Assembly: GCA_013042915.1 (NCBI GenBank)
Contig: JABDPF010000039.1
Coordinates: 1 to 64,000, forward strand
Direction of reading: 5' to 3'
Length of the DNA stretch: 64,000 nucleotides
From: Lysobacterales bacterium
GTDB lineage: Bacteria > Pseudomonadota > Gammaproteobacteria > Xanthomonadales > SZUA-36
Of this stretch, positions 81-49,100 are shown in pieces. The position numbers and the translations under genes were made by a program. Under the pieces are notes generated by a model, which was given only the letters and a program-made list of their open reading frames with translations, did not search any database and had not been told where the DNA came from. Positions within the stretch are counted from its first letter, which is position 1; every line of letters begins with the position of its first letter.

Positions 81-157
81 TGGCGCGCCCGACAGGATTC
101 GAACCTGTGACCCCTGCCTTCGGAGGGCAGTACTCTATCCAGCTGAGCTACGGGCGC
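81..157 (-). tRNA. tRNA-Arg (anticodon CCG)
   Basis: Read on the minus strand this is a full 77-nt cloverleaf with encoded CCA. The acceptor stem GCGCCCG pairs with CGGGCGC, the anticodon stem CTGCC pairs with GGCAG, and the loop CTCCGAA puts CCG at positions 34-36. The T-loop is TTCGAAT. It decodes CGG arginine codons. A -10-like TACAAT lies about 11 bases upstream (168-173, minus strand). Confidence 0.96.
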
Positions 158-185: not shown

Positions 186-334
186 GACAGGATTATTCCG
201 GGCTTCCTGCCCTTCACCCCTGCGGGGCCGCCTGCGCTGCGCTTCGGCTTCCAAATTTGTTCCCGACAAATTTGTCGAACCTGTGACCCCTGCCTTCGGA
301 GGGCAGTACTCTATCCAGCTGAGCTACGGGCGCT
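186..334 (-). pseudogene. second tRNA-Arg copy, split in the T-loop by an 81-bp insertion
   Basis: Positions 275-334 repeat 60 bp of the intact tRNA-Arg (99-158) without a mismatch: acceptor 5' strand, D arm, anticodon arm with CCG, and T-arm up to the loop. The T-arm then breaks. The plus-strand stretch 186-194 (gacaggatt) matches the other side of the T-loop (91-99), and 195-275 is extra. The 3' acceptor strand and CCA are not recognisable. With no pairing partner for GCGCCCG and an interrupted T-loop it should not mature into a tRNA. A spurious reading frame across this area gives a tRNA-shadow peptide that should not be annotated. Confidence 0.75.
195..275. repeat. 81-bp insertion inside the tRNA-Arg pseudogene
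   Basis: This stretch separates the two halves of the T-loop. It contains an inverted repeat, caaatttg (252-259) and caaatttg (267-274), around cccgac, and a G+C-rich core. It has no room for a gene. Together with the pseudogene and intact tRNA it accounts for most of the gene-free stretch 158-465. It is flanked by tt and cgaa, the middle of the T-loop, so it may be a short repeat that targets tRNA T-loops. That is an inference. Confidence 0.5.
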
Positions 335-46884: not shown

Positions 46885-47805
46885 ATGAACAGGACCCCCA
46901 GAATCTGGTTCAACGGAAAATTACGCGAATCGGCGGAATGCACTGTGCATATCGCAAGCCACGCATTGCACTACGGTTCCTCCGTGTTCGAGGGCATCCG
47001 GGCATACGACACGCCGGCAGGCACGATGATCATGCGCGGCACGGACCACATGAAACGGCTTGAGTACTCGGCCAGGGTCTATCGCATGCCGATGGATTAC
47101 AGCGTCGATGAACTGCACGATGCGATGCGCGAAACCGTTCGGGACAGCGAGCTCGCAAGCGCGTACATCCGCCCCATCATTTCCCGGGGTAACTGCGGAC
47201 TCGGCGTCATCCCCAAGGACATGAGCGTGGTCGACACTGCGATCATGGTTGCACCGTGGGGCGCGTACCTCGGCGAGGACGGGGTCAAGAACGGCATCAA
47301 GGCCTGCATCACTTCCTGGAGCCGGCTGGCTCCCAATACGATGCCGCCCGGCGTCAAGGCGGGGGGTAACTATCTCTCCAGCCAATTGATCGGTCTCGAG
47401 GCAAGGGACCGTGGATTCACCGAGGGTATCGGCCTCGGCGTCGACGGCCTGCTCAGCGAGGGCGCGGGTGAAAATATCTTCCTGGTCAAGAAAGGCTGCC
47501 TGATCACGCCGCCGGCTTCGGCCATGATCCTGAGCGGCATCACGCGCGACGCGGTGATCACTCTGGCTGCCGAAACCGGTATCGAGACCATCGAGCAGAC
47601 CATCTCGCGCGAGCAGATGTACGCCGCTGACGAAATCTTCATGACCGGTACAGCGGCCGAGGTTACCCCGGTGCGCCAGGTCGACCACATGGTGATCGGC
47701 AACGGCGGCTGCGGCCCGGTGACCCGCCAGCTACAGGAAGCCTATTTCGGCCTCTTCAATGGCCAGACGGAGGATCGCTGGGGCTGGCTGGAGCCGATCG
47801 ACTGA
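46885..47805 (+). CDS. ilvE: branched-chain amino acid aminotransferase
   Basis: A 306-residue class IV aminotransferase. The PLP Lys is in PPGVKAGGNYLSS, with EGAGENIFLV, GTAAEVTPV and the N-terminal HALHYGSSVFEGIRAY matching IlvE. It makes the last step of Leu, Ile and Val synthesis, or the first step of their breakdown. AGGAAG lies before the start. No other ilv gene is nearby. Confidence 0.95.
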   Translation: MNRTPRIWFNGKLRESAECTVHIASHALHYGSSVFEGIRAYDTPAGTMIMRGTDHMKRLEYSARVYRMPMDYSVDELHDAMRETVRDSELASAYIRPIISRGNCGLGVIPKDMSVVDTAIMVAPWGAYLGEDGVKNGIKACITSWSRLAPNTMPPGVKAGGNYLSSQLIGLEARDRGFTEGIGLGVDGLLSEGAGENIFLVKKGCLITPPASAMILSGITRDAVITLAAETGIETIEQTISREQMYAADEIFMTGTAAEVTPVRQVDHMVIGNGGCGPVTRQLQEAYFGLFNGQTEDRWGWLEPID

Positions 47806-47817
47806 AAAGGGCAGGGC

Positions 47818-47878
47818 GGTGACAATATTTGTCACCCGGGTGACGCGTAGCGGCAACTCATCGGGTTGCCGCCGTCAC
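47818..47878 (+). promoter_or_regulatory. overlapping palindromes upstream of a sigma-54 promoter
   Basis: GGTGACAATATTTGTCACC (47818-47836) is an inverted repeat with a TAT centre. GTCACCCGGGTGAC (47831-47844) is a perfect palindrome overlapping it. A hairpin GTGACG...CGTCAC with inner GCGGCAAC/GTTGCCGC follows (47840-47878). They lie about 65-125 bases before the sigma-54 -24 element, the range for enhancer-binding proteins. A role as ilvE terminator is less likely because no T-run follows. Confidence 0.45.
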
Positions 47879-47941
47879 GATAATCCAAGTAAAAAAATCT
47901 TTCTTGTTGTTTTCTATGGTTTTACTGCCCTAAAAGCGAAG

Positions 47942-47958
47942 TGGCATCGTTCTTGCTT
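47942..47958 (+). promoter_or_regulatory. sigma-54 promoter (-24/-12)
   Basis: TGGCATCGTTCTTGCTT has GG and GC exactly 10 bases apart (47943-47944 and 47955-47956), and nine of the key TGGCAc-N5-TTGCw positions are present. The predicted start is 47968. Confidence 0.65.
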
Positions 47959-47967
47959 TATAAAGGA

Positions 47968-48056
47968 TGATAGACACTAACTGACTGGTAGCAGTTAGCG
48001 GGAAGAACCGGGGCCCTGCCCCTCTTTGCCCAATCAGGCCCCCGGTTCCCCCTTTT
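47968..48056 (+). ncRNA. candidate sigma-54-dependent small RNA of about 88 nt
   Basis: A sigma-54 promoter is followed within 90 bases by a hairpin CTAACTG-ACTGGTAG-CAGTTAG (47977-47998), a linker with CGGGAAG and a terminator stem GAACCGGGG/CCCCGGTTC with a loop that carries CCCCUC. No open frame with ribosome site lies in it. It is independent of ilvE (T-run and palindromes before) and of truC (a second terminator after). GlmY/GlmZ and CrcZ show that sigma-54 sRNAs exist, but I see no similarity to them. Confidence 0.5.
48005..48056 (+). terminator. terminator of the candidate sigma-54 RNA
   Basis: GAACCGGGG (48005-48013) pairs with CCCCGGTTC (48040-48048), with a further CCTG/CAGG pairing inside, followed by CCCCTTTTATC. 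The T-run is short, so efficiency is uncertain. Confidence 0.6.
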
Positions 48057-48345
48057 ATCGCTAAGTTTCAAGGGTATGGATACAGGCAGCGCGCCAGGGA
48101 CGGCAACTTTCTTCCTTCCGTGCTGCAACAAATTTGATTTCAAGTCGGTTCGAATCCGGGCGGCAGGCGCGACTCCTCTCTCCGCGCCTGCCTCCCGGTG
48201 ACGACATGCAGGGGGACAGCGAGAAGCAGCCGGAGCCTTCGGGGTGAACCGCACCGGCCGACAAAGGCGTTCGACGCACTGCAAGACCGGGGCGGACGAA
48301 TACCCAACGAGAAGTGTTGAACCCGGCATCGGCCGGGTTTTTTTT
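48057..48345 (+). other. gene-free structured region ending in a terminator
   Basis: No plausible gene. The main feature is a hairpin GGCAGGCGCG/CGCGCCTGCC (48062... corrected: 48162-48171 and 48183-48192) whose 11-base loop ACTCCTCTCTC is complementary to Shine-Dalgarno sequences. A second hairpin GCCGG/CCGGC follows near 48230-48265. It is closed by the strong terminator at 48320-48345. A separate structured RNA, or the leader of truC, is possible; its own promoter is not evident. Confidence 0.35.
48320..48345 (+). terminator. strong intrinsic terminator before truC
   Basis: AACCCGGC-ATCG-GCCGGGTT followed by eight T. It is only 15 bases before the truC start, so it ends an upstream transcript or attenuates truC. 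Confidence 0.85.
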
Positions 48346-48359
48346 CGTACAATCCGCAC

Positions 48360-49100
48360 ATGCACCGCCCCGTTCTTTCGAGCGACGACGTTCTCTACCG
48401 CGACGACCATCTGCTGGTGGTCAACAAACCGGCCGGTGTGCCGGTGCACGGCAGCCGGATGCTGGAAGGACGGCCGGAAACCCTGTTGGCAATGACCCGG
48501 GAATTGACCGGGCGGCTGGTCCACCCTGTGCATCGTCTCGACCGACCTGCCTCGGGCGCAATCCTGCTCGCCATCGACCGGACCGGACTGGCTGCGATGA
48601 GCAGCGCGTTCGAAAAACGAGAAGTGGAAAAACGCTACCTGGCCGTCGCGCGGGGCTGGACCGGGGCAGCGGGTCGCGTCGATTATGCCCTTTTGCCCCC
48701 TCGAGACGAGCGCCGACCCGGCAGCGAGCCTCGCAACGCCTCCACCCACTACAGCCGCCTGGCGACACTGGAACTCCCCTTCGCCGTGGCGCCTTACGCC
48801 ACCGCGCGTTACAGCTTGCTGGAATTGAACCCGGAAACCGGAAGACGACACCAGATCCGGCGCCACATGAAACACATCAGCCATCCCCTGGTAGGTGATA
48901 CGACCTACGGCAAGGGAGAACACAACCGTGTGTTCCGCGAGCAGTTTCAGAGCGCGCGCCTGTTGCTGCACAGCCGATCTTTGGCGTTTCACCACCCGTC
49001 TGGAGGTGAGTGGATCGAGGTGACGGCGCCGCTGGACCCGGCGTTCGACCGGGTGGCACGCGCTTTTGGATGGTCAGCGGGACTTAAGGCACACTCTTGA
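48360..49100 (+). CDS. truC: tRNA pseudouridine synthase TruC (RluA family)
   Basis: A 246-residue RluA-family pseudouridine synthase without an S4 domain. The catalytic Asp is in HRLDRPASGAIL near residue 60, and the C-terminal HQIRRHMKHISHPLVGDTTYG is the typical RluA block. The subgroup with this N-terminus and length is TruC, which modifies U65 of tRNA-Ile and tRNA-Asp. The last 17 bases overlap the end of the convergent NYN gene. Confidence 0.88.
   Translation: MHRPVLSSDDVLYRDDHLLVVNKPAGVPVHGSRMLEGRPETLLAMTRELTGRLVHPVHRLDRPASGAILLAIDRTGLAAMSSAFEKREVEKRYLAVARGWTGAAGRVDYALLPPRDERRPGSEPRNASTHYSRLATLELPFAVAPYATARYSLLELNPETGRRHQIRRHMKHISHPLVGDTTYGKGEHNRVFREQFQSARLLLHSRSLAFHHPSGGEWIEVTAPLDPAFDRVARAFGWSAGLKAHS

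Follow-up and report, generated by a model that had tools for sequence, protein, structure and literature searches.

What is transcribed from the DNA that follows ilvE in this bacterium, and what switches it on? The initial annotation had placed a sigma-54-dependent small RNA here, and the upstream gene is ilvE as it had said (Table 1). In the window, the whole stretch of 64,000 nucleotides analyzed, the exact pattern TGGCAYN5TTGCW has a single match, the annotated -24/-12 element, 0.15 matches being expected by chance. Taken alone, the promoter of this sequence is only mildly unusual; the case for a sigma-54 small RNA is made by conservation, the element being kept in all aligned RNA copies. 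In the reading that we favor, at a probability of roughly 70%, the region would encode a non-coding RNA transcribed from a sigma-54 promoter under the activator PilR, carrying two conserved hairpins as its 5' module, and acting in trans through its loops. Two adjoining tRNA-Arg (CCG) genes lie elsewhere in the window (81-157 and 258-333, minus strand).

Table 1. Features of the RNA locus, in positions of the window
Feature	Positions	Strand	Support or remark
ilvE, branched-chain aminotransferase, upstream neighbor	46885..47805	+	above-threshold NCBIfam match (ilvE_I, 392 bits)
Enhancer (upstream activating sequence), apparent PilR site, TGACAATATTTGTCA-CCCGGG-TGAC-N7-GGC	47820..47855	+	pattern search
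AT-rich mid element TTTCTTGTTGTTTT, possible IHF-type bend site	47900..47913	+	weak in several copies
Sigma-54 -24/-12 promoter TGGCATCGTTCTTGCT	47942..47957	+	kept in all RNA copies
P2 hairpin, perfect 7 bp, CTAACTG-ACTGGTAG-CAGTTAG	47977..47998	+	invariant TGGTAGC
P3 GC-rich hairpin, CU-rich loop GCCCCUCUUUGCCCAAU at 48018-48034	48000..48052	+	covariation; model R1, 96.7 bits
UUUUAU run after P3, possible early 3' end	48053..48058	+	this genome only
Degenerate 3' domain (three hairpins in relatives)	48176..48315	+	12/26 consensus pairs kept
Intrinsic terminator AACCCGGC-ATCG-GCCGGGTT-T6, 3' end of long transcript	48319..48345	+	8/8 pairs

A covariance model (R1) built on hairpins P2 and P3 was used to search 39 genomes of the family to which the bacterium belongs, and 15 RNA copies were found in 12 of them, spread over 7 of the 14 genera. 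The carriers form a group within the uncultured Lysobacterales. Homologues in this family, several with the promoter, were also returned when relatives were searched at the DNA level. The other genomes of a 299-genome sample of the order and of a 369-genome sample of the class (about 630 together) yielded no copy, nor did the viral contigs searched. Two of the 12 exact-pattern matches in genome contigs, from Halomonas and Gelidibacter, were set aside as seemingly due to chance, on taxonomy alone. Rfam gave no gathering-level match at this locus and none on the RNA at E<=1 across 14 loci; sub-threshold matches in a 700-bp stretch of the window fall off the RNA or are to a Dictyostelium snoRNA (E 1.7). 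Beside the RNA locus of five relatives, the cspA thermoregulator RNA (RF01766) is matched below threshold, at 50-61 bits against a cut-off of 78 (L010 679-1123, L013 1885-2274, L009 1734-2135, L011 1859-2253, L008 1819-2171; none in the window).

Eleven orthologous RNA copies have common flanks behind ilvE, and about 550-630 bp of the ilvE region can be aligned in orthologous loci. Extra copies reside at other loci, one more in genome G005 and two more in G011, and keep the enhancer. The third G011 copy is diverged (L113 on G011:C156, 1694-1768, minus strand, 40 bits), and has an enhancer and a -24/-12 box of its own. These extra copies, which adjoin unrelated genes, speak against the notion that the locus makes no separate RNA, and that the hairpins are merely a strong pair or the read-through leader of the pseudouridine synthase gene. 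This gene does start on the same strand only 15 bp past the terminator, at 48360, but the terminator that intervenes is strong, and we regard this as the least probable of the alternatives weighed.

The perfect 7-bp hairpin of the initial annotation is present (P2 in Table 1), its 3' strand and loop (TGGTAGC) showing no variation among copies. The G-rich stretch described as a linker between the two hairpins is there too, but as the 5' arm of P3 rather than as a separate element. P2 lies 15-21 nt from the TTG of the -12 box in the 14 aligned copies. The sequence folds more stably than its dinucleotide shuffles, with z-scores of -2.6 for the first 109 nt and -2.9 for the full transcript. Covariation in relatives, which had been suggested as a check on the hairpins, was found: nine pairs of the P2 and P3 stems, seven of them in P3, have changed on both sides among the 14 copies, and compensatory cells number 25 against 9.9 in shuffles, none of 500 shuffles reaching 25. 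When the partner was slid by 1-3 columns as a control, pairing dropped from 88% to 33-56%. An enclosing helix, P1, is unsupported, since permuted flanks do as well (2802 of 20000).

Where the RNA ends is a question with two possible answers. P3 had been annotated as a terminator, with the 3' end at 48056. The hairpin is conserved as such, but a terminator function is not: five of the eight bases after P3 are T in the window, against 0-3 in 13 relatives, and a stronger terminator follows at 48319-48345. In the relatives the RNA would be read through to this later terminator (AACCCGGC-n4-GCCGGGTTTTTT), which lies 328-445 nt from the promoter, the distance being some 200 nt in a short copy. The terminator scan admits loops only up to 8 nt, so that the P3 loop, CU-rich and 16-17 nt long, is beyond its reach. 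P3 is better described as a conserved structural module, its role as a terminator being doubtful. Between P3 and the later terminator the relatives have a second structured domain, the three hairpins of which show compensatory changes as well. This domain retains 20-26 of the 26 consensus pairs in most relatives, 13 in L025 and 12 in the window, where mean identity is 0.40; the 5' module, at 0.80, is as conserved as that of any other copy. Because the UUUUAU run follows P3 here and the downstream half has decayed, the short form may hold in this genome, and an RNA of about 90 nt may be its working form. Yet the later terminator is intact in the window despite the decayed domain; an end after P3 would give an RNA of about 90 nt, an end at 48345 one of about 380 nt, and both are possible.

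A coding role was also considered. No open frame had been noted in the annotated RNA, and the 62-67-aa frame of relatives is indeed absent from the window. This frame, ending in ...ARMLGGQAKTIMRLGGSMR, is found in phase in seven relatives (L020-L024, L019 and L026), and is broken in five. The transcript could accordingly be the messenger for a protein of about 66 aa (...RPHISLKARMLGGQAKTIMRLGGSMR), the hairpins serving as a structured 5' leader, or an RNA of dual function: 7 of 12 orthologues have an open frame from GTCATGGA to a common stop, a GGAG lies ahead of it, and third positions show a mild excess (126 against 95 and 75). Against this, codon changes are mostly non-synonymous (145, against 52 synonymous), the covarying hairpins are formed by the same bases, and the product has no Pfam match; L019 and L024 have lost the start codon while keeping the surrounding GTCAnnGAnGAC. 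The frame being broken in the window, in four orthologues (L025, L027, L029 and L030) and in all extra copies, a small protein cannot be the common function. It is possible in part of the clade; as an account of the locus, it appears rather improbable. GTCAnnGAnGAC, at about +115 of the RNA in L020-L031, is kept even without its ATG, and may form a small hairpin whose loop contains GGA, or may be a DNA site.

Some GGA motifs, such as CAUGGAUGA at about +115 in relatives, would fit a CsrB- or RsmY-like sponge for CsrA/RsmA. This is very improbable, the frequency of GGA being at shuffle level in 11 of the 12 copies tested, and the P2 and P3 loops being devoid of it. A CrcZ-like A-rich decoy for Hfq was rejected as well: AANAANAA motifs number 0 in the window copy and 1-3 in three copies only, mostly at chance level.

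A non-coding RNA remains the preferred reading, and its regulation may be approached from the DNA ahead of the promoter. The enhancer consists of four half-sites, TGAC-N7-GTCA-N6/7-TGAC-N7-GAC, one every 11 bp or so. Searched as TGACA-N6-GTCA-N5..9-GAC, it occurs once in the window, 0.05 matches being expected, and ahead of all 15 RNA copies; its start is 121-125 bp from the -24 box (about 122 bp) in 13 of the 14 copies measured. Earlier models of the enhancer, with N4 or N6 spacing, were discarded because they matched unrelated palindromes. With the promoter conserved, the enhancer at a fixed distance from it, rpoN present in 38 of the 39 genomes of the family (in that of the window, PF04552 at E 2e-62) and a covarying structure, the annotated sigma-54-dependent small RNA gene is supported.

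A TATCYTAYTGTTTT element lies between enhancer and -24 box in both RNA and pilA promoters (L144-L167). Its best match ends 28 nt before the -24 box in 11 of 14 RNA copies, and a similar AT-rich element is found 16-18 nt before it in many pilA promoters, the positions being about one helical turn apart. The element is perhaps an IHF site. Another conserved double palindrome, TGACATNAATGTCA-N5-TGACAATATTGTCC, occurs in six genomes (G000:C8:22247-22279, G011, G012, G022, G026 and G030).

The same enhancer pattern, TGACATTTATTGTCACAACCTGAC..., followed by a -24/-12 box, TGGCATAGGATTTGC, is found upstream of pilA in the genome of the window (G000), between pilR and pilB, and pilA of G004 and G022 is likewise preceded by both. 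TGAC-N7-GTCA is also present ahead of pilA in nine relatives in which the RNA was not detected, which assigns the site to the regulator of pilin, with the RNA sharing it; the enhancer appears to be an older property of pilin control. PilS, PilR, PilA and PilB are encoded in one cluster of the window's genome, the kinase having the PilS membrane domain (PF25323, 6TM_PilS), PilR a receiver, an AAA+ and a Fis HTH domain. In Xanthomonas and Xylella, members of the same order, pilA is driven by PilR and RpoN (PMC8657755, PMC3224663). Since the enhancer is common to the RNA and to the pilA gene beside pilS-pilR, the RNA most likely belongs to the PilR/sigma-54 regulon of type IV pili; it is from the common sites that we infer PilR to be the protein bound. 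A central metabolic role, as suggested initially, does not fit the enhancer shared with pilA, which points to pili.

The RNA and pilA might instead answer together to an activator other than PilR, seven PF00158 matches marking further NtrC-type regulators in the genome. Regulators besides PilR also act on pilA promoters in several proteobacteria. On the other side, the site is upstream of pilA in all genomes examined, and pilA adjoins pilR in the window's genome and in several relatives. In Xylella, moreover, NtrC and PilR are the sole activators of this type, and the pilA1 promoter is sigma-54-dependent (PMC3224663). A different activator is therefore unlikely. Comparison among genomes shows the promoter, the enhancer, the structure of the RNA and the presence of the same enhancer at pilA.

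With PilR as activator, the RNA would be made as follows. PilR, the response regulator paired with PilS, is of the NtrC type, and this two-component system drives pilA as well. Phosphorylated PilR would bind the four half-sites, and looping of the DNA would allow the -24/-12 promoter to open. RNA polymerase carrying sigma-54 is expected to start the RNA near 47968. Activity of PilS/PilR would thereby raise pilA and the RNA together; because a sigma-54 promoter and an apparent PilR site form a switch of the same kind as that of pilA, the RNA is probably a novel regulator whose production accompanies that of pili. The 5' module would present the two nearly invariant loops of P2 and P3, followed in relatives by the second structured domain and the terminator.

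We infer that the RNA is produced and acts in trans, its loops pairing with other transcripts and adjusting other genes during pilus production. The CCCCUCUUU loop resembles an anti-Shine-Dalgarno sequence, and contacts with targets are predicted through loops ACUGGUAG and CCCCUCUUUGCCCAA. Exact complements of 11 nt of the P3 loop (TTGGGCAAAGA), searched in 12 genomes, identified no conserved gene among matches outside the RNA genes. The pilA mRNA, in which UACCAGGAGGG faces both loops, is not convincing as a target: among 158 background starts it ranks 18-94 with the P2 loop and 25-94 with that of P3.

Three known RNAs invite comparison. GlmY of enterobacteria, driven by sigma-54 and GlrR, has a sigma-54 promoter and enhancer half-sites of TGTC/GACA type; the GlrR site is TGTC-N10-GACA, and the RNA described here differs in spacing and orientation of half-sites, and has no Rfam match. 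CrcZ and CrcY of Pseudomonas (sigma-54 and CbrB) are similarly stand-alone small RNAs under a two-component NtrC-type activator (PMC8657755), with copies at more than one locus, but activator and site differ, and AANAANAA repeats are missing here in 9 of 12 copies. The Qrr RNAs of Vibrio (sigma-54 and LuxO/SypG) also depend on an NtrC-type activator, and sometimes occur in several copies per genome (PMC10162802); they have no sequence or Rfam similarity to this RNA, the enhancer of which is common to pilA. In its transcription the RNA is, as far as these comparisons tell, like CrcZ, Qrr and GlmY; in sequence and structure it matches none of them. The closest promoter is that of PilR-regulated pilA (Xanthomonas, Xylella, Pseudomonas), for which pilA of the window's family served as the comparison. 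It shares the enhancer, the -24/-12 box and perhaps the mid element, but its product is a pilin mRNA, whereas the RNA lacks a conserved coding frame; the enhancer of pilA is about 99 bp from the -24 box rather than 122.

No PilR-dependent small RNA was found in the literature searched, the "PilR" RNA of Synechocystis being a clash of names. The odds seem even that the PilS/PilR regulon has here its first small RNA, one of a new family that extends the regulon, by means of two invariant loops, to post-transcriptional control beyond the pilus, with a minimal form of about 90 nt in the lineage of the window. Known sigma-54 small RNAs are outputs of nitrogen, carbon, quorum or cell-wall signaling. 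The rule for the enhancer, half-sites every 11 bp or so, provides a PilR motif that can be tested in genomes of Lysobacterales. The type IV pilus system senses surfaces and the level of pilin; a PilR-driven RNA, if true, would add to it a post-transcriptional arm.
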